From Bacteroidota bacterium (GTDB lineage Bacteria > Bacteroidota > Bacteroidia > B-17B0 > Aurantibacillaceae), in contig JAJONO010000024.1 of the NCBI GenBank assembly GCA_021323535.1, positions 1 to 64,000 on the forward strand: 64,000 nucleotides of DNA, in the 5' to 3' direction. Under the pieces are notes generated by a model. The model made no database searches, was not told the DNA's origin, and saw only the letters and a program-made list of their open reading frames with translations. Numbering within the stretch: position 1 is the first letter of the stretch; every line of letters begins with the position of its first letter. The translations under genes and the position numbers were made by a program. Below, piece after piece: positions 42,446 to 54,640 of this stretch.

Positions 42446-44314
42446 GTGAAAACCCTATTCGTTTTTTTTGCCGCGGCACTTCTAACTTCTTACTCCGGTT
42501 TTGGAGCCAAAGACAAATACGCGCTTTACGAAGACATTCTTAAAATTAACGACGACAGTGTTAAATGCGCCCGCCTTATATTGCTGGCCGAGAAAGTAGC
42601 CGATAGTTTATACGATTATAGTTTTTCATTGATGACCTTCGAAAAAGCAAACTCTATTCTTTCGAAACACAGGTATCCTGTTCTTGAACTCGACCTGTAT
42701 TACAAATGGGGATTTGTGAACTACCATAAGGGAAACTATGACAGGGCCGACAAGCTTTACCTCAAAGCGCTTGAGTCTAAAGTATTGGATAGTAAACAAA
42801 ATCTTAAGGCAAATATTCTAAATATGGCAGCAGTAAATCTCCAGGAGCTGACTGTGTTTAAAAGAGCTTTGGAATATTATAACGAAGCGCTGGAAATTTA
42901 CACGAGGTTAAAAGATGATAATGCCAAGGCGGCTGTATACGTGAACATGGCAAATATTTTTGCGTTATCGGGTAATCTTAAAGAATCGGACGCGTTTTTT
43001 GACAGAGCGGGAAAGATATTTATCAAGCTTGATAAAATGGAAAGGTACGCTACGCTTCTGGGAAACAAATCCTACATAAAATGGAAACTCGGGTATCCCG
43101 ACAGCGGTAAAGTTCTTTTAATAAGATCTTTTGAGATCGCCTCTAAATATCCGGGGAACATGACCGGAAAAATTGAGCACCTGTTCAATCTCGGGATCAT
43201 GTATGGAGAATTAAGAAACTGGGACAGTTGTTTTTATTTTCTCGAGCGTGGAAAAAAAATATCCGATTCGCTTAGTCTTTTTGGGAGCCTCGACGGTTCT
43301 TATTATTACAGCCTGGGATATTGTCACCAACTGAAAGGCGATCTTAAAGAAGGAATCAGAAATTACAAGAAGGCTATTAATCTTAAAACCGGCATTTCGA
43401 ATTTCCGTCTTCTTCATGATAATATTTCAGCCCTGTATTTCAGGTTAAAACAATTTGACTCGGCCCTCATTTATAAAAACATCAGCTTCAGCATTGCGGA
43501 TAGTATCTATAAAAGCGAATTACAGGAACACATTAATTTTGAAGATAAAAGAATAGAGCTTATTGAGAAGGATTATGAGAACAGGATCAGAAGCGCGGAA
43601 CAGGAACAGCATCTTGAAAATCTTAAAAAAAGAAATTATCTTCTTATTGTCGCGGTTATTCTTCTCATCGCATTTGTGCTTTTGTTTATTCTGTATTTCA
43701 GGCAATATAAATTAAAGGAAAAGAAAGAACATCTCGAAAGTGAACTCAACTTTCTGAAAGCGCAGATGAATCCTCATTTTCTTTTTAACTCCATCAATAA
43801 TATTTATGTTCTGTTAGATGAAAACAAGGAAAAAGCTTCAGAGATCCTTTTGAAATTTTCTGATCTGTTGCGTTACCAGTTGTATGAATGTAACGTGAGT
43901 TTTATTTCATTGAATAAAGAACTGAACTTTCTTGAAAATTTTATTGAATTTGAAAAGCTAAGGTATTCCAACAAAATACAAGTGATCTATGAATTTGAAA
44001 ATCCTCCATCAGCGGATCTAATGATTGCGCCGCTTTTATTGCAGCCTTTCATAGAAAATGCCTTTAAGCATACACCAAAAACCAAAAATCACCAGGCCAG
44101 CATCAGAATAAAAACATATTTCAGCGGTGATAACTTTACCCTGGAGGTTATTAATAGTGTAGACGGAAAAAAACCTTCTTCCCTGCCGGGAGGAATAGGT
44201 CTTGAAAATGTAAAAAGACGTCTCAGGCTTTTATACAATAATAAACACCAACTCAGAATTTCTACTGAGGAATCAACCTTTACAACCACCCTAAGCATCA
44301 AACTCACAAAATGA
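42446..44314 (+). CDS. TPR-containing sensor histidine kinase, LytS type
   Basis: A 622-residue sensor kinase with a GTG start and a signal peptide (MKTLFVFFAAALLTSYSGFG). TPRs occupy about residues 55-360 (ALEYYNEALEIYTRLKDDN, GIRNYKKAINLKTG), a membrane helix lies at about 398-420, and the cytoplasmic part has the LytS-type motif LKAQMNPHFLFNSINN and a GHKL ATPase ending in LPGGIGLENVKRRLRLLY. It overlaps the start of the response regulator gene by four bases (ATGA), so the two form a two-component pair translated together. Signal and target genes are unknown; peptide or cell-wall responses are common for this class. Confidence 0.92.
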   Translation: MKTLFVFFAAALLTSYSGFGAKDKYALYEDILKINDDSVKCARLILLAEKVADSLYDYSFSLMTFEKANSILSKHRYPVLELDLYYKWGFVNYHKGNYDRADKLYLKALESKVLDSKQNLKANILNMAAVNLQELTVFKRALEYYNEALEIYTRLKDDNAKAAVYVNMANIFALSGNLKESDAFFDRAGKIFIKLDKMERYATLLGNKSYIKWKLGYPDSGKVLLIRSFEIASKYPGNMTGKIEHLFNLGIMYGELRNWDSCFYFLERGKKISDSLSLFGSLDGSYYYSLGYCHQLKGDLKEGIRNYKKAINLKTGISNFRLLHDNISALYFRLKQFDSALIYKNISFSIADSIYKSELQEHINFEDKRIELIEKDYENRIRSAEQEQHLENLKKRNYLLIVAVILLIAFVLLFILYFRQYKLKEKKEHLESELNFLKAQMNPHFLFNSINNIYVLLDENKEKASEILLKFSDLLRYQLYECNVSFISLNKELNFLENFIEFEKLRYSNKIQVIYEFENPPSADLMIAPLLLQPFIENAFKHTPKTKNHQASIRIKTYFSGDNFTLEVINSVDGKKPSSLPGGIGLENVKRRLRLLYNNKHQLRISTEESTFTTTLSIKLTK

Positions 44315-45015
44315 TTAACTGTGTTATTATAGAAGACGAGCCCCTTGCGCAACTTGGTTTACTAAACCTTATAAAACCATTTGAAAATCTGCACCCTATG
44401 GTTGTATGCGATGATGTAGCCGATTTTTTAAGTTTCAGAGAAGCAAACAGCGAAAAAAATATTGATCTTATTTTTCTCGACATTGAATTACCCGGAATGA
44501 ATGGTATCGATTTCATAAGAAAAATCCCACTGGATGTTCCGATAGTAATAACTACCGCTTATAACCAATACGCTATTGAAGGATACGAGTTAAACGTACT
44601 CGATTATCTTTTAAAACCCACATCGAAAGATCGTTTCCGGCAGACTGTTTCAAAAGTGGAGAGTTATATCAATTACCACAAGTCAGCATCAGCCGAACAC
44701 AGGTTCATTTATATTCGTTCAGAAAAAATTATTGAAAAAGTGACCTTTGACGAAATTGTGATGATCGAAGCCATGAGAAATTATGTGATCTATCATTGTG
44801 AAAAAAGAAAACTGATCTGCTACAACTCTCTTAAAAATGTGGAGAGTGAACTTCCGCAAAATAAATTTATTAAGGTGCAGAAATCATTTATTGTGAACAA
44901 GAGCAAAGTAAGTAAGATTGAAAAAGGGCAGGTTCATATAAAAGGTAAGAGCATTTCCATTAACCGCGAAAACAAGAACGAGATTGTAAAGAAACTTCTT
45001 GAGAAAACTTCCTGA
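44311..45015 (+). CDS. LytTR-family response regulator
   Basis: A 234-residue DNA-binding response regulator. The receiver domain (residues 1-120) has the acidic pocket NCVIIEDEPLAQ, the phosphoacceptor aspartate in FLDIELPGMNG, and the lysine in YLLKPTSKDRF. A LytTR domain fills residues 137-231 (RFIYIRSEKIIEKV, KFIKVQKSFIVNKSK). Its partner is the TPR kinase whose gene overlaps it by four bases. LytTR proteins bind direct repeats in promoters; I did not find an obvious pair near this operon. Confidence 0.93.
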   Translation: MINCVIIEDEPLAQLGLLNLIKPFENLHPMVVCDDVADFLSFREANSEKNIDLIFLDIELPGMNGIDFIRKIPLDVPIVITTAYNQYAIEGYELNVLDYLLKPTSKDRFRQTVSKVESYINYHKSASAEHRFIYIRSEKIIEKVTFDEIVMIEAMRNYVIYHCEKRKLICYNSLKNVESELPQNKFIKVQKSFIVNKSKVSKIEKGQVHIKGKSISINRENKNEIVKKLLEKTS

Positions 45016-47831: not shown

Positions 47832-48064
47832 TCAACTAAAAATAAGAATAATTCACGAAATCAGTAAGAATGGTATTATTTTATGCGTTTTTACAAAGTT
47901 TTTCTGATCTGACTCCCTTTTAAAAAACCTATTGCTCTTTGATTGCAGATATTATGGTAATTTCAAAAAAGCGAGCCGTTCCCGTTCTTTCAAAAAAACT
48001 TTTGGGAGCACATAGGGGTATACCGGACTTCGGTTGTCTAAAGAGAAAGTTATCCTGATTAATG

Positions 48065-48072
48065 TATCTTTG
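48065..48072 (+). promoter_or_regulatory. -7 promoter box of the sigma/FecR locus
   Basis: TATCTTTG matches the TAnnTTTG box exactly. The implied transcript start near 48078 rules out the upstream TTG starts at 48034 and 48070 and favours the TTG at 48091. No good -33 box is seen, which would fit activation by another factor. Confidence 0.5.
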
Positions 48073-48090
48073 TGGCCAATATCCACAAAA

Positions 48091-48678
48091 TTGCAGGTTA
48101 GCGAACAAACATACTGGCAGCAAATTAAAACAGGTGATAAAAAGGCCTACGAAACTATTTTCAGGACCTGGTACCAGGTGCTGTGTAATTACGCCTGTTC
48201 GCTTATAAAAGATATGGATGAAGCAGAAGAAGTGGTGCAAAATGTATTTTATACGATCTGGAAAAAACGCGAGGAACTCGAGATCGGCTCTATAAAAGCG
48301 TACTTGTACAGAGCGGTGCATAACGATTGCCTCAACAAAATAAAACACGCGAAAATAAAAATGAATTACGCGCAGGATTATAAGCACACTGCACAGGCCG
48401 GACTCGACAGTTCGACACAACTGCTGAATGCGAAGGAGCTGAGTGTAAAGATACATGAGGCTATTGATTCGCTTCCGGAGCAATGCGGACTTGTATTCAG
48501 GCTGAACCGTTTTGAAAATAAAAAATACTCGGAGATCGCCAGCGAGCTTGGTATTTCGGTAAAAACGGTAGAGAACCACATGGGCAAGGCGCTTAAAATT
48601 ATGAGGGAACGATTAAAAGATTATTTACCGGTAATTGGCTGGTGGCTATTTTGCGCCAGCGCCGAAGTTTTAACGTAG
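48091..48678 (+). CDS. ECF sigma factor paired with FecR
   Basis: An RpoE-type sigma factor of about 195 residues. Region 2 is GDKKAYETIFRTWYQVLCNY...EEVVQNVFYTIWKKRE, and region 4 is LPEQCGLVFRLNRFENKKYSEIASELGISVKTVENHMGKAL. It lies just before a FecR anti-sigma gene. The TTG at 48091 is preferred because of the promoter position; the frame remains open upstream. In Bacteroidota such sigma factors are held by FecR and released when an outer-membrane STN-domain protein is engaged, so it probably turns on the STN repeat protein and TonB receptor genes that follow. Confidence 0.88.
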   Translation: MQVSEQTYWQQIKTGDKKAYETIFRTWYQVLCNYACSLIKDMDEAEEVVQNVFYTIWKKREELEIGSIKAYLYRAVHNDCLNKIKHAKIKMNYAQDYKHTAQAGLDSSTQLLNAKELSVKIHEAIDSLPEQCGLVFRLNRFENKKYSEIASELGISVKTVENHMGKALKIMRERLKDYLPVIGWWLFCASAEVLT

Positions 48679-48686
48679 GAATTAAA

Positions 48687-49685
48687 TTGAAGAACTATTC
48701 TGAACATATTGACGGGCTCATTGCCAAACTTCTTTCAGGAGAAATAACTCCCGAGGAAAATGCTGCGCTGGAAAATTGGAAAGCCGAAAGCGAAGACAAC
48801 CTGCGTTATTTCGAACAGAATAAAAAACTGTTCATGGAAATTGAATCCATGAAAACGGAACAGGAAGTGAACGTAGACAAAGCCTGGAACAAACTTGAAG
48901 AAAGGCTTAATGAAAAAGAAGAAGCGAAAGTTATTTCTATAAGACCCCGCTTTACAATTTATCATGCCGCCGCAGCCCTTGCTATTATTGCCGTTCTGGC
49001 CATCCTCATTACTTTTTTCATGGGTGGAGAACAAACAACGGGACTGGCTCTTGTTTCATCAAAAAACTCTGTTACAAGTAGGTTACCTGATGGAAGCTCA
49101 GTGATCCTGAATAAAAATTCGGAGCTCACTTACGAATCGGGAAGTAATAAACGTGAAGTAAAATTAAAAGGAGAAGCTTATTTTGATGTGGTTCATAACG
49201 AAGATCAGCCTTTTGTTGTAACCGTAAACGATATTACTATTAAAGACATTGGAACCTCTTTTAATGTAAAAGCCATTGAAGGAACCAGTACCATTGAAGT
49301 AATGGTGGAAAGCGGCGAAGTACATTTTTATTCGAAAGAAGACGAAGGATTAAAACTTGTTAAGGGAGAGAAAGCTGTTTATTCTACCATTGACAGAAAA
49401 TTCTCCAAAGCTTTTATTTCTCCGGGAGACAATACCACCAGTTATCATTCGAAAGTATTCCGGTTTAAGGAAACGCCTCTTCATTTAGTTATACAACAGT
49501 TGAATGATGTGTATGAAATGAACATACAACTGGAAGATCCCGCTCTTGGAAATTGTATGCTTTCTGTTACTTTCAACAATGAAAAACCGGAAGCCATTCT
49601 GAGTATTATTGCCGAAACGCTCAATCTTGAGGTGGTACGATCAGGAAAATCTATCACACTAAAAGGCGAACCTTGCAACAACTAA
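48687..49685 (+). CDS. FecR-family anti-sigma factor
   Basis: A protein of about 332 residues. A cytoplasmic domain of about 85 residues holds the sigma factor (NYSEHIDGLIAKLLSGEITPEENA); a membrane helix follows (AAAALAIIAVLAILITFFMGG); the periplasmic FecR domain (ITIKDIGTSFNVKAIEGTSTI, VESGEVHFYSK) and the DUF4974 domain at the C-terminus (FKETPLHLVIQQLNDVYEMNI) come next. I prefer the TTG at 48687 right after the sigma stop codon to the ATG at 48642, which overlaps the sigma gene by 37 bases. It links an outer-membrane STN domain to the sigma factor. Confidence 0.9.
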   Translation: MKNYSEHIDGLIAKLLSGEITPEENAALENWKAESEDNLRYFEQNKKLFMEIESMKTEQEVNVDKAWNKLEERLNEKEEAKVISIRPRFTIYHAAAALAIIAVLAILITFFMGGEQTTGLALVSSKNSVTSRLPDGSSVILNKNSELTYESGSNKREVKLKGEAYFDVVHNEDQPFVVTVNDITIKDIGTSFNVKAIEGTSTIEVMVESGEVHFYSKEDEGLKLVKGEKAVYSTIDRKFSKAFISPGDNTTSYHSKVFRFKETPLHLVIQQLNDVYEMNIQLEDPALGNCMLSVTFNNEKPEAILSIIAETLNLEVVRSGKSITLKGEPCNN

Positions 49686-49688
49686 AAA

Positions 49689-51410
49689 ATGCGCCGGTCA
49701 ATCGTTTTGTTTTTTTTCATAATGACCTTGTTCACTTTCAGAGCCGCAGTTCCCGCGCTTGAAAGAGAGGTTACATTAACGGTTCAGAATGAACCCATTT
49801 CGATTGTGCTTATAAAAATTCAGGAACAAACCGGTGTTGTTTTTTCTTATCCTTCATCACTCATCAGTTCTGTATCTCCCGTTTCGGTAAGTGTAAAACA
49901 AAAAACGATCCGCGAAGTGCTGTCTTTAATTCTTCCTCAAAGCTTATATTATAAACCAAAGGATAATTACATTATTCTGAAAGAAAAAAAAACGGAAAAA
50001 AATCCCGCAAAAACCGAGCTCAGCGGATACGTGATCGATAAATCCACCAATAAGAAGATCGCAAATGTAACCGTGTACGACAAGAACACTCTTAAATCAA
50101 CCACTACCGATGACTATGGTTTTTATTCCTTAACCGTTCCCGCAGCAAGCAATAAGATCAGCATCAACAAACAGGATTATAAAGACACAGCTTTAATTCT
50201 TACTGGAAATAATAACGCGTTGTATACGATTGGACTTGATCCGTTAAGTGATTCAATTAAAACAAAAAACAGGGAGTGGGAGAAAAAACTGGAGCAGATT
50301 GAAAAATTCACCGAAGACTTTGTAAAAAAATTCGGCGCCTACATCAACACCCTCAACGTGAAAGATACTTTGACAAGACCCTTCCAGGTTTCGCTTTTAC
50401 CTTTTATCGGAACCAACCACAAGCTCTCAGGAAATATCTACAATAATTTTTCTTTCAACGTACTTGGCGGCTATTCAAAAGGCAATAACGCTTTTGAACT
50501 CGCAGGATTGTTCAACATCAATAAAGAACATGTAAAAGGTGTGCAGATCGGAGGCCTGTTTAACGCCAACGGCGGAAAGATGACGGGCGTACAGATCGGC
50601 GGCTTGTTTAATGCTGTTGGCCAGGAAACAAAAGGAGTGCAGATTGCCGGCCTCTTCAATAATAACAATGGAAATTCTAAAGGCGTTGCTATCGCCGGAT
50701 TAATGAATCTTACCAAAGACACCACTTCTGGTATTAGTATCGCAGGATTATTTAACAGAAGCAGGCATCTGAAAAACGGAATACAAATAGCAGGGCTTTA
50801 TAATGACGCAGAAAGCGGAAGCGCCAATGTTCAGATCGCAGGTTTATTCAATAAGACAAAAGTTTTAACAGGTGTGCAGATTGCAACATTTAACTTTGCA
50901 GACTCAGCCAGTGGTGTTCCAATAGGATTTTTCAGTTTCGTGAAAAAAGGTGTTCACCAGATAGAAATTTCGGCGGATGAACTCTTTTATACCAATCTTT
51001 CTTTCCGCACCGGAGCCAATTCGTTTTATAATGTATTCAGCGGGGGAATAGAACCCGGAAAAAGCGAGCCCATGTGGCATCTGGGTTATGGCATAGGGAC
51101 TTCATTCGGAATAATAAAAAAATTAAGAAGTGATATTACTGTCAGCACACAACATTTATGCATTGGTGAATTTAGCTTTTCAACGAACGACCTGTATAAA
51201 TTCTATTGGGGGCTAGAATACAAATTCAATAGAAAACTTTCTGTTGCCGCAGGAGCCACATTCAATCTTCTTTTAACAGATCTTAACGATCCCGAAAATG
51301 CGCTTAAGTACCAAAGCAGGATTCCTTCTGGTGCCACAGAACTCAATGATGGCGGAAACAACAGCGTTAAGTGGTGGCCAGGCGCGAGAGTCGCCATTCG
51401 TTTCTTATAA
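49689..51410 (+). CDS. STN-domain secreted protein with GVQIGGLFN surface repeats
   Basis: A 573-residue exported protein. After a signal peptide (MRRSIVLFFFIMTLFTFRAA) comes an STN domain at residues 26-97 (NEPISIVLIKIQEQTGVVFS), the module that contacts FecR in TonB receptors, then a carboxypeptidase regulatory-like domain at 108-184, a helical stretch near 190-220, and eight tandem repeats of about 22-24 residues between about 266 and 415. Each has the pattern GVQIaGLFN. A membrane-barrel-like region follows, with no plug and no TonB box. The repeats match the LA_2272-type surface repeat seen in Leptospira and Bacteroidota. It lies between FecR and the TonB receptor, an unusual place for STN. 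Confidence 0.85.
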   Translation: MRRSIVLFFFIMTLFTFRAAVPALEREVTLTVQNEPISIVLIKIQEQTGVVFSYPSSLISSVSPVSVSVKQKTIREVLSLILPQSLYYKPKDNYIILKEKKTEKNPAKTELSGYVIDKSTNKKIANVTVYDKNTLKSTTTDDYGFYSLTVPAASNKISINKQDYKDTALILTGNNNALYTIGLDPLSDSIKTKNREWEKKLEQIEKFTEDFVKKFGAYINTLNVKDTLTRPFQVSLLPFIGTNHKLSGNIYNNFSFNVLGGYSKGNNAFELAGLFNINKEHVKGVQIGGLFNANGGKMTGVQIGGLFNAVGQETKGVQIAGLFNNNNGNSKGVAIAGLMNLTKDTTSGISIAGLFNRSRHLKNGIQIAGLYNDAESGSANVQIAGLFNKTKVLTGVQIATFNFADSASGVPIGFFSFVKKGVHQIEISADELFYTNLSFRTGANSFYNVFSGGIEPGKSEPMWHLGYGIGTSFGIIKKLRSDITVSTQHLCIGEFSFSTNDLYKFYWGLEYKFNRKLSVAAGATFNLLLTDLNDPENALKYQSRIPSGATELNDGGNNSVKWWPGARVAIRFL

Positions 51411-51418
51411 TCCTTCTC

Positions 51419-51434
51419 CCGATAATTATCGGGA
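51419..51434. repeat. REP-like palindrome
   Basis: CCCGATAATTATCGGG is a perfect 16-base palindrome. Together with the flanking CCTTCT and GCTCAGGGTGACGAA it resembles REP-like elements of the phylum (compare 2586-2660 and 25085-25110). It is also close to the STN gene stop codon. Confidence 0.6.
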
Positions 51435-51527
51435 ACGCTCAGGGTGACGAACAGCCTTTATTTTTTCTTTTTGAGTAGGGGTTAAAGAGTTTACGGTTGT
51501 CACAGGTATATAACAAAAAAATATACT

Positions 51528-52253
51528 ATGAAAACTTCAAACATGATTCTCTCTCTTCTTCTGATCACTGCTTTATTTTCTTCCTGCAAAAAAAACTGGC
51601 ACAAAGTAGTTGTCGGAAAAGGAGAAACTGTAACTGAAAGCAGACAGCCAGGAAATTTCAATCGCATTCATTTATCAATAGACGCCAACGTACACTTTGT
51701 TCAGGACTCGGTTTATAAACTCGAAGTTTCGGCTCAACAAAATTTAATGTCGGTTATCGAAACAAAAACCGATGGTAAGGAACTCGATATTGAATACAGC
51801 GCCAATGTTGCAAAACATTCGCCTATAAACATCACCATTCACGCGCCTGATATTTCTAAATTTTCGGTTAGTGGTTCAGGAAATATAGACTGCGCCAATA
51901 AGATCACCACAAATTCGCTTGAATTAAAAGTAAGTGGCTCCGGCGATATTGATCTTGCAGAACTTGTAACAGATAATTTAAGCTCACACATTAGTGGGTC
52001 AGGTAATGTGGATATACATGCCGGCACCACCAACTATGAATCATTTGAGATCAGTGGATCAGGAAATTGTAATGCTCTAGACTTTAAAGCTACAACTGCC
52101 AATGTAAAGGTGAGCGGCTCCGGAGATATAAAACTGTATTGTACCGAAAGTCTTGAAGCAAAAATTTCAGGAAGCGGTAATGTAAGTTACAAAGGTAATC
52201 CCGGTGTTAATAGTTCATGTAGCGGTTCAGGCAAGCTTGTCCATCTTAATTAA
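51528..52253 (+). CDS. Head-GIN domain (DUF2807) lipoprotein
   Basis: A 241-residue outer-membrane or surface lipoprotein with a lipobox signal (LLLITALFSSC). The DUF2807 domain contains seven regular SGSGx(I/V) repeats about 19-21 residues apart, for example GSGNIDCANK, GSGDIDLAEL and GSGNVDIHAG, which form a right-handed beta-helix. The family is called the putative auto-transporter adhesin head-GIN domain. It lies between the STN repeat protein and the TonB receptor on the same strand, so it probably belongs to the same regulon. Its ligand is unknown. Confidence 0.88.
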   Translation: MKTSNMILSLLLITALFSSCKKNWHKVVVGKGETVTESRQPGNFNRIHLSIDANVHFVQDSVYKLEVSAQQNLMSVIETKTDGKELDIEYSANVAKHSPINITIHAPDISKFSVSGSGNIDCANKITTNSLELKVSGSGDIDLAELVTDNLSSHISGSGNVDIHAGTTNYESFEISGSGNCNALDFKATTANVKVSGSGDIKLYCTESLEAKISGSGNVSYKGNPGVNSSCSGSGKLVHLN

Positions 52254-52276
52254 TCATTATCAAAATAAATAGTACA

Positions 52277-54640
52277 ATGAGATCCACTATTAATTCTTTC
52301 ATTTTAATTCTTTCATTCATGAGCCTTGGTGCCTGGGCACAAACGCTCACGCAAACCATTCGCGGAACGGTTACGGATAAGATATCGCAATCTCCTCTTC
52401 CGGGAGTAGCAATTGTGTTACTGAACTCCGATCCTCTTAAAGGAACAACCACTGATGAGAACGGACAATTCATTCTGAATAATGTGCCTGTTGGAAAACA
52501 AACCATCAAGGTAAATTATATTGGTTACAAAGAATCAACGCTCCAGAATCTTACTGTCAATTCAGGAAAAGAACTTGTGATGAATATAAACCTTGAAGAA
52601 GATATTGCCACTATGAGCGAAGTGGAAGTAACCGCGAAGCAAAACAAAAACAAACCTCTCAATGAAATGTCGACTGTTAGCACTCGTGCGTTCTCCGTTG
52701 AAGAAACACAAAAATTTGCCGCGGCAGTAAACGATCCTGCCAGGATGGCCACTTCATTTGCGGGAGTTGTTCAGGGAGGCGACGGAAATAATCATATTTC
52801 TATTCGTGGAAACTCACCCGGAGCTTTGTTATGGAGGATGGAAGGCGTTGAAATTCCGAATCCGAATCATTTTTCAAGTGTGGCCACATCAGGTGGAGGG
52901 ATCTCTATTCTGAGCGCGCAACTTTTAAATAATTCCGATTTTTCCACCGGTGCCTTCGCCGCGGAATATGGCAACGCGCTCGGAGGCGTATTCGATCTCA
53001 AACTTCGTAAAGGGAACAACCATAAAAGAGAATACACTTTTCAGGCTGGGGTGCTTGGAGTGGATGTTGCAGCCGAAGGTCCGTTTAAAAAAGGTTACGA
53101 TGGTTCTTTCCTGGTCAACTACCGTTACTCAACTCTTTCAGTTCTTTCGATGATGGGTGTTCCCATTGGCGATGGTATTACTAATTTCCAGGATCTTTCT
53201 TTCAATGTTTCATTACCAACGAAAAAAGCCGGGACTTTTAGTGTGTTTGGTTTTGGGGGATTAAGCTCACAAAGAACAGAAGCAAAAAAAGATTCTCTCA
53301 AATGGAAAGAAGATGATTTTTATCGTTACAGTTATAATTTCTATGCCAATACCGGCGCCACTGGAATTACCAATACAAAATTATTCAATAATCAGTCTTA
53401 CTTAAAAACAGTACTCGCATTTTCGGGAACACAAAACGGAGAAGATGGCAGAAAACTCGAAAACGATTACAATACTTTTACAAAAACATACCAGCAGACT
53501 TACACCCAGAGTAAAATTACTTTATCGAGTGTGTATACAAAAAAGATCAACGCGAGGAATAATATCAGGACCGGATTTATTCTTAACAGGCTTGGCTATG
53601 AGTTGCTGCAAAAATCAAGCAGAGATACAAACATATTAATCGAAAAACTCCGTGTTAATGGCAGTACCGAAACAGCACAACTGTTTTTTCAATGGAACCA
53701 GAGGCTGAGCGAAAAACTAACCACAAATGTTGGCGTACATTATTTTCATTTATTGCTCAATAACTCCAACTCACTTGAACCACGTGCTTCTGTGAAATAT
53801 GATATTACTCCCAAACACAGTCTTACTCTTGGTTACGGCTTACACAGCCAGCTTCAACCTATTGGCGTTTACTTTGCCCAGTTGCCGGGAACAGATGGAG
53901 GTTACACACTTCCGAATAAAAATCTTGGATTCAATAAAGCTCACCACATTGTGTTGGGTTACGACTGGAACTTTAACGAATACTCGCATCTGAAAACCGA
54001 AATTTATTACCAGCATTTATTTAATATTCCAATCAGCCAGGATAAAACATCTACCTTTTCGATTCTGAACGTAACCGACGGATACAACACCGATCCTCTC
54101 GTTAATAGCGGACTTGGCACCAACACAGGATTAGAATTAACGTATGAAAGATTTCTTCACAAAAATCTTTACTACTTATTATCTGTTTCATTGTATGACT
54201 CAAAATACAAAGCTCCGAATGACGAATGGTATAACACGCTTTTCAATACCAATTACGCAAGCTCATTCACCATGGGAAAAGAATGGCACTTTACAAGAAA
54301 GGAAAAGAACAGAACATTCGGGTTTAATATTAAATCTGTTTTTGTTGGTGGGTTTCGTTATACACCTATAGATCTTGCTGCTTCTATCGCAGCCGGAGAA
54401 ACAAAATATCAGACAGACAAAAGTTTCGAAGAGAAAAATCCGGATTATTATCGTCTCGACATTCGCGCCAGCCTAAAACGTAATTACAAGAAAATTACAA
54501 GCACGGTAGCATTGGATATTCAGAATACAACGAACAGGAAAAATGTTGGCGGACAATATTTTGATGTCAAAACCGGGCAAATAAAATACTGGTACCAGGC
54601 ACCGTTAATTCCTATATTAAGTTACAAAGTGGAGTTTTAA
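52277..54640 (+). CDS. TonB-dependent outer-membrane receptor
   Basis: A 787-residue receptor. A signal peptide (FILILSFMSLGAWA) is followed by a carboxypeptidase regulatory-like domain at residues 27-105 (TIRGTVTDKISQSPLPGVAIV), the plug at about 120-230 (ISIRGNSPGALLWRMEG), and a beta-barrel to the C-terminus (ILSYKVEF). It lacks the STN domain usual for FecI/FecR-linked receptors, while a separate STN protein is encoded 1 kb upstream. No SusD gene is adjacent, so it is not a typical polysaccharide locus. Substrate is unknown; metals, cobalamin or peptides are all possible. Confidence 0.9.
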   Translation: MRSTINSFILILSFMSLGAWAQTLTQTIRGTVTDKISQSPLPGVAIVLLNSDPLKGTTTDENGQFILNNVPVGKQTIKVNYIGYKESTLQNLTVNSGKELVMNINLEEDIATMSEVEVTAKQNKNKPLNEMSTVSTRAFSVEETQKFAAAVNDPARMATSFAGVVQGGDGNNHISIRGNSPGALLWRMEGVEIPNPNHFSSVATSGGGISILSAQLLNNSDFSTGAFAAEYGNALGGVFDLKLRKGNNHKREYTFQAGVLGVDVAAEGPFKKGYDGSFLVNYRYSTLSVLSMMGVPIGDGITNFQDLSFNVSLPTKKAGTFSVFGFGGLSSQRTEAKKDSLKWKEDDFYRYSYNFYANTGATGITNTKLFNNQSYLKTVLAFSGTQNGEDGRKLENDYNTFTKTYQQTYTQSKITLSSVYTKKINARNNIRTGFILNRLGYELLQKSSRDTNILIEKLRVNGSTETAQLFFQWNQRLSEKLTTNVGVHYFHLLLNNSNSLEPRASVKYDITPKHSLTLGYGLHSQLQPIGVYFAQLPGTDGGYTLPNKNLGFNKAHHIVLGYDWNFNEYSHLKTEIYYQHLFNIPISQDKTSTFSILNVTDGYNTDPLVNSGLGTNTGLELTYERFLHKNLYYLLSVSLYDSKYKAPNDEWYNTLFNTNYASSFTMGKEWHFTRKEKNRTFGFNIKSVFVGGFRYTPIDLAASIAAGETKYQTDKSFEEKNPDYYRLDIRASLKRNYKKITSTVALDIQNTTNRKNVGGQYFDVKTGQIKYWYQAPLIPILSYKVEF

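Follow-up and report, generated by a model that had tools for sequence, protein, structure and literature searches.

The DNA analysed here, the first 64,000 nucleotides of contig JAJONO010000024.1 from a Bacteroidota bacterium of the Aurantibacillaceae (assembly GCA_021323535.1; hereafter the window), carries at positions 48,065 to 54,640 a sigma/FecR locus that probably encodes a FecI/FecR-type trans-envelope module in which something other than a TonB-dependent transporter serves as outer-membrane transducer. The genes run in a single direction, in the order sigma factor, fecR, a protein with an STN signalling domain, a head-GIN lipoprotein and a TonB-dependent receptor (TBDT). Adjacency, TBDTs lacking STN, co-variation and a shared promoter motif point to the STN protein as the outer-membrane partner of FecR. 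Cell-surface signalling is taught as transporter-coupled, with the imported ligand as the signal. The present arrangement recurs across many Bacteroidota, which argues that sensing in such signalling does not have to fall to a transporter.

The locus and its STN protein

The hallmark of FecI/FecR systems, an extracytoplasmic function (ECF) sigma factor of FecI type adjoining a FecR-type anti-sigma factor, is present. The sigma factor matches TIGR02985 with 176 bits (cut-off 126), and FecR matches PF04773 (1.5e-16) and PF16344 (2.7e-11), the latter family being itself STN-like. The gene for the STN protein follows fecR at a distance of 3 nt. The TBDT has matches to the N-terminal extension (NTE) domain, plug and barrel, with STN not among its domains, and the lipoprotein matches DUF2807 (4e-44). 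In these respects the sequence-only reading of the window had placed and named the genes correctly (Table 1). Translation of the sigma factor probably begins at ~48091 and not at the TTG at 48034, because this TTG sits within a promoter motif described below; relatives were also used to place the start.

Table 1. Features of the sigma/FecR locus, numbered from the first letter of the window
Feature	Position	Strand	Basis
Sigma-dependent promoter motif TAGGGGT-N14-TTGTC, copy 1, before the sigma gene (predicted)	48013..48038	+	Exact genome copy
ECF sigma factor, FecI-type	48091..48678	+	TIGR02985; open reading frame (ORF) listed from 48034, true start probably ~48091
FecR-type anti-sigma factor: cytoplasmic part, transmembrane segment (~residues 108-128, by eye), FecR domain, STN-like FecR_C	48642..49685	+	PF04773, PF16344
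STN-NTE-helix-solenoid-barrel protein, proposed outer-membrane transducer	49689..51410	+	Domain matches, alignment, models
STN signalling domain (residues 25-104)	49761..50000	+	PF07660; model match to PupB 6ovk_B
SusC-type NTE / carboxypeptidase-regulatory-like domain (residues 107-187)	50007..50249	+	PF13715; model match to SusC NTE 9hfj
Beta-solenoid of 16-residue repeats (residues 224-417)	50358..50939	+	Alignment, model
8-stranded outer-membrane barrel, end ...VAIRFL (residues 422-573)	50952..51407	+	Model; OprF 4rlc match
Sigma-dependent promoter motif TAGGGGT-N14-TTGTC, copy 2, before head-GIN and TBDT genes (predicted)	51476..51501	+	Exact genome copy
Head-GIN (DUF2807) lipoprotein, predicted target gene	51528..52253	+	DUF2807 match; lipobox ...LFSSC by eye
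TBDT with NTE, plug and barrel, without STN, predicted target gene	52277..54640	+	Domain matches

The sequence-only reading had described the protein between FecR and the TBDT as an STN domain followed by repeats. Both are there, and it had missed two further parts, an NTE (PF13715) directly after STN and a C-terminal barrel. A TonB plug is not among the Pfam domain matches of this protein. An AlphaFold model of the whole protein was built from 17 sequences (predicted local distance difference test, pLDDT, 77.8; predicted template modelling score, pTM, 0.49), and one of residues 224-573 from 94 sequences (pLDDT 95.9, pTM 0.87). In second-look alignments the modelled STN domain fits PupB chain 6ovk_B (Z 9.7, root-mean-square deviation (rmsd) 2.1, 79 residues aligned), and the second domain fits the NTE of SusC, 9hfj (Z 12.3, rmsd 1.8, 80 aligned). 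In residues 224-573 the 16-residue repeats form a solenoid, and the eight strands after it align with the OprF barrel 4rlc (Z 13.6, rmsd 3.0, 123 aligned). The idea that the 16-residue repeats are themselves barrel strands was dropped, as the deeper model separates the solenoid from the barrel.

Periplasmic turns of outer-membrane barrels are, as a standard rule, short. The gaps between the modelled strands alternate between longer and short (4, 2, 7, 2, 7, 4 and 26 residues), and by this rule the start of the barrel, hence the solenoid, would lie on the periplasmic side. The repeats are thus modelled as a periplasmic solenoid joined to an OprF-like barrel and not as surface-exposed, so the earlier description of a "surface repeat protein" is not supported. 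The eight GVQIGGLFN repeats reported earlier number about eight if variants are allowed; the exact sequence occurs just twice in the translation, the others being close variants with a mostly 16-residue period, and at the DNA level the gene showed no tandem repeats. The short G-rich repeats resemble those of the LA_2272 and VC2662 repeat proteins of NCBIfam, but the protein falls below both curated cut-offs, and a score of 19.5 bits against the LA_2272 model (NF047436, cut-off 25) argues against the "LA_2272-type" label it had been given. The solenoid aligns with the HxuA secretion domain (Z 11.7, rmsd 3.3, 159 aligned) and Tapirin (Z 11.3, rmsd 2.8, 175 aligned), which we take to be right-handed helices. 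Folds we take to be left-handed reach Z ~13 but at rmsd ~10; the right-handed fit is better, yet the handedness is unsettled. A TonB-box pattern matched 0/78 STN proteins of the related loci described below, but is insensitive, since just 19/53 TBDTs match it.

Recurrence of the arrangement and the partner of FecR

The sequence-only reading had proposed to look for the STN-repeat protein beside fecR in other genomes, and it recurs there. A protein search of 87 genomes of the window's GTDB family (E <= 1e-5) gave some match in 69, many of these to NTE domains of TBDTs alone; the fetched family loci that hold the whole protein have the same gene order. Scanning named genome contigs with the window protein as a single sequence gave no match, whereas an alignment-based scan succeeded, and 80 of 139 relatives were kept. 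These 80 loci come from Cyclobacteriaceae, Algoriphagus, Chitinophagaceae, Crocinitomix and unnamed Bacteroidota, and some belong to the same assemblies as the family genomes. FecR lies directly 5' of the STN protein in 78 of them and the sigma factor in 75, on the same strand, which puts the arrangement beyond chance. Among the exceptions, L116 is cut by the contig and three loci (L075, L127, L129) lack a sigma gene at a contig start. The 78 include L081 and L085, in which the listed ORF start overlaps fecR. The downstream genes vary: a TBDT follows in 55 loci, a head-GIN gene in 38 and a further solenoid-barrel gene copy in 27, and four operons (L077, L080, L091, L100) end at the STN protein.

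In a phylum sample of 392 genomes, 71 had a match. The STN-fused form was read by eye from the rows of 18 genomes (our own included) in seven families of one class. Solenoid-barrel proteins without STN are more widely spread, which suggests that an older solenoid-barrel protein acquired the STN-NTE end by fusion. In an independent sample, 60 genomes of the class were searched with Pfam STN; 20 matched, and of the loci with shorter or odd ORFs 20 were examined. Five of these were of the solenoid type, all with sigma-FecR upstream, and with G032 and our own window included sigma-FecR lies directly upstream in 7/7 genomes having the protein. The same sample contains STN ORFs of ~640 aa; one that was scanned (L200) is a secretin, and the others, in similar neighbourhoods, are read as secretins of the type II secretion system kind and not as FecR partners. 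Additionally, an STN-free solenoid-barrel copy comes after the transducer in L041, L042, L045, L046 and many Algoriphagus loci, and might be its competitor or partner.

The most serious rival is that the TBDT is still the sensor: it would bind a ligand and touch the STN-barrel protein, which relays the signal, giving a two-protein split receptor. A TBDT does lie within 6 kb in 55/80 loci, and the one in the window stands under the same sigma promoter motif. However, no TBDT was matched in 25/80 loci, several of which have 8 kb of downstream sequence, and a gene can be a target without encoding the sensor. STN was found on 0/56 locus TBDTs in the 80 loci, while both STN-TBDT controls were detected. 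The co-variation data argue in the same direction. Partial correlations of pairwise distances, given the sigma factor, were calculated over 78 loci (53 for the TBDT). The periplasmic part of FecR correlates with STN at 0.552 (bootstrap 0.44-0.64), with NTE at 0.472, with the barrel at 0.389 and with the solenoid at 0.272, and the TBDT is the weakest of all parts at 0.073. The order is unchanged when near-identical loci are collapsed to 63 (STN 0.54, NTE 0.50, barrel 0.40, solenoid 0.31), and length-matched blocks of 79 columns give a mean of 0.30 for the barrel and 0.07 for the TBDT. PupR needs both periplasmic subdomains for PupB binding (PMC7186176), in line with the co-variation of STN with FecR's entire periplasmic part. 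We therefore regard the TBDT as an unlikely sensor, and binding of the STN domain to FecR is the contact we predict from these sequences.

Less probable still is that the STN protein is a non-sensing periplasmic scaffold or stability partner of FecR, with sigma activity set by another input such as protease control. For FoxA/FoxR it is reported that the signalling domain shields the anti-sigma factor from proteolysis without inducer (PMC11637429), in line with such a role, but a conserved outer-membrane barrel and stalk would be left without explanation.

The sequence-only reading had also asked whether another STN receptor elsewhere in the genome could be the partner. The genome has three FecR genes and 25 plug matches. 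A Pfam STN search had suggested that it holds no STN receptor, a conclusion dropped when a family STN profile, run on ORFs from the 25 plug loci (the L180 ORF is not a TBDT), found STN on one TBDT alone, a weak match on contig 90 (L057:8808-11408). This STN is too weak for Pfam, so Pfam STN searches undercount Bacteroidota transducers. Cross-talk with the contig-90 receptor is possible but not favoured; that it serves the FecR of the window, whose own STN would be vestigial, is very improbable, since, although both STN matches are weak by Pfam, the receptor adjoins its own sigma and FecR, and the window-type STN is conserved with invariant positions in 17 aligned sequences and also in distant loci. 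The third sigma-FecR pair of the genome (contig 16, L056:8121-10144) is followed by a 182-aa protein without a Pfam match, and no TBDT is present there.

Several results weigh against the STN protein as FecR's transducer. The sequence match of the STN domain alone is modest, as PF07660 (4.7e-5) reaches 23.5 bits and the Pfam cut-off is 28.4. Foldseek against the PDB returned no match at E <= 0.001 for either model, so the fold matches given above are second-look alignments. The lead of STN over NTE in co-variation is uncertain, with a bootstrap share of 0.95 that drops to 0.79 after collapsing, and for FecR_C alone the order is reversed (NTE 0.446, STN 0.308). FecR and STN are adjacent, so a common recombination history may raise their correlation. 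The genome does contain one other STN-TBDT, the weak one on contig 90. One locus (L141:7920-9692) has the STN-solenoid-barrel gene with no fecR or sigma gene nearby, the sole true orphan among the 80, and a relaxed form of the promoter motif is found on neither side in 12/72 testable loci.

Promoter motif and proposed mechanism

A dyad search found GGGGT-N14-TTGTC in 45/75 regions upstream of the sigma genes and TAGGG-N16-TTGTC in 39/66 regions before the next gene, compared with at most 4 in shuffles. The exact motif of the window, TAGGGGT-N14-TTGTC, occurs twice in our 5.3-Mb genome, both times at this locus. When the window was shuffled 100 times with dinucleotides preserved and one mismatch allowed, a mean of 0.22 matches was obtained and two were reached in 2/100. 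At one mismatch the genome holds 6 copies, no more than the 18 of the backward control. In 13 related genomes 30 exact copies were found (5 for the control), 25 of them at this locus; two of the 13 genomes had none. The five off-locus copies are in G003 and G004, and in both they include the front of an orthologous TBDT. This TBDT lies next to hisS (L227, L230), where our own genome has no exact copy. The relaxed motif is present at 50/74 sigma fronts and in 51/78 downstream stretches, and 20 of the 108 strict copies in the 80 loci lie before an STN-free solenoid-barrel copy. The motif may extend beyond this sigma group, as a motif-like promoter lies near a canonical STN-TBDT locus in G050 (L059:3206). 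A scan for sigma-70 promoters and terminators gave nothing better than shuffled sequence.

The predicted regulon in our genome thus comprises sigma-fecR-transducer and head-GIN-TBDT. Because the motif occurs just twice, before the sigma gene and before the head-GIN-TBDT pair, the TBDT looks like an output and not a sensor.

In the transducer that we propose, a small barrel of eight strands would bear on its periplasmic side the solenoid stalk, a helix, the SusC-type NTE and, at the far end, STN. The STN domain would dock on the periplasmic half of FecR, like the STN domains of FecA, PupB and FoxA. If the barrel, its four external loops or the stalk sensed a change, this contact would be altered, and FecR would in turn release the sigma factor or activate it. 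The sigma factor would then read the two predicted promoters, one driving its own operon (sigma-fecR-transducer), i.e., autoregulation, and the other the lipoprotein and TBDT as a small output. A lipid, lipopolysaccharide, a partner protein or the envelope state seems likelier as the signal than a large ligand, because the four modelled external loops are short.

A conserved plugless transducer would set sensing apart from transport, predicts an input independent of TonB and turns the TBDT into a regulated output. The motif, with its two copies, offers a ready reporter assay for an almost closed regulon, and the role of the STN-FecR contact, activation or protection, could be addressed free of transport as a confounder.

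Relation to known systems

The locus resembles FecI-FecR-FecA, PupI-PupR-PupB and FoxI-FoxR-FoxA in its FecI-type ECF sigma factor, a FecR with an STN-like C-terminus, STN on an outer-membrane protein (here modelled) and locus-linked target promoters (here predicted). Unlike in these systems, STN sits on a small barrel that has a solenoid stalk and lacks a plug, and the transporter features only as a predicted target. The split signalling system proposed by the sequence-only reading therefore stands as far as STN on a non-transporter is concerned, with adjacency, co-variation and promoters in its favour; its surface repeats are not supported.

STN apart from a TonB receptor has a published precedent, contrary to that reading, in VreA of the VreA-VreR-VreI (PUMA3) system of Pseudomonas aeruginosa. 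VreA is a protein of its own that bears STN, is not a transporter and is encoded alongside a sigma factor and its FecR-type regulator; it lacks a barrel, is mostly soluble and has a TolA/TonB-like C-terminus (PMC2729926). The window protein differs in its C-terminal 8-stranded barrel, modelled at high confidence. The Dma anti-sigma factors of Bacteroides have an outer-membrane beta-barrel that reports to an ECF sigma factor across the periplasm and are single chains with a disordered tether that pair with ECF21 sigma factors (PMC13088901). Here, in contrast, anti-sigma factor and barrel are encoded by two separate ORFs and would be joined via STN. The locus combines the VreA idea (STN without a transporter) and the Dma idea (a barrel controlling an ECF sigma factor) in another way. 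The STN of SusC is tied to anti-sigma signalling, and NTE is stated to precede STN in such SusCs, with both domains on one outer-membrane protein (PMC7782687). The window protein shares the two domains but has neither plug nor 22-strand barrel, and STN comes before NTE. Full-text literature gave no small-barrel protein bearing STN next to FecR; subscription papers and preprints were outside its coverage.

Other candidate non-transporter STN proteins were found in genome G501, where four sigma-FecR-STN loci (L210-L213) carry STN on a protein of 458-483 aa. Its barrel match to PF13568 passes the Pfam cut-off in L212 and falls short of it in L210 and L213; L211 has no such match. There is roughly an even chance that plugless STN transducers make up a whole class in Bacteroidota, in which small barrels of the outer membrane signal to FecR without TonB or transport, with a solenoid type, a PF13568-like type (L210-L213) and perhaps an STN-NTE-ankyrin type. 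If so, STN would serve as a portable plug, linking FecR with anything that the outer membrane must report. The possible third type is an 801-aa protein of the same genome (L214:1904-4306), encoded beside sigma-FecR, that combines STN and NTE with ankyrin-like repeats and is a possible non-transporter STN partner. In L210, an SprB-repeat protein follows the STN protein.

Just upstream of the locus in the window, at 42446-45015, translations read by eye show an ORF resembling a sensor kinase of the TPR type, followed by a response-regulator-like ORF.

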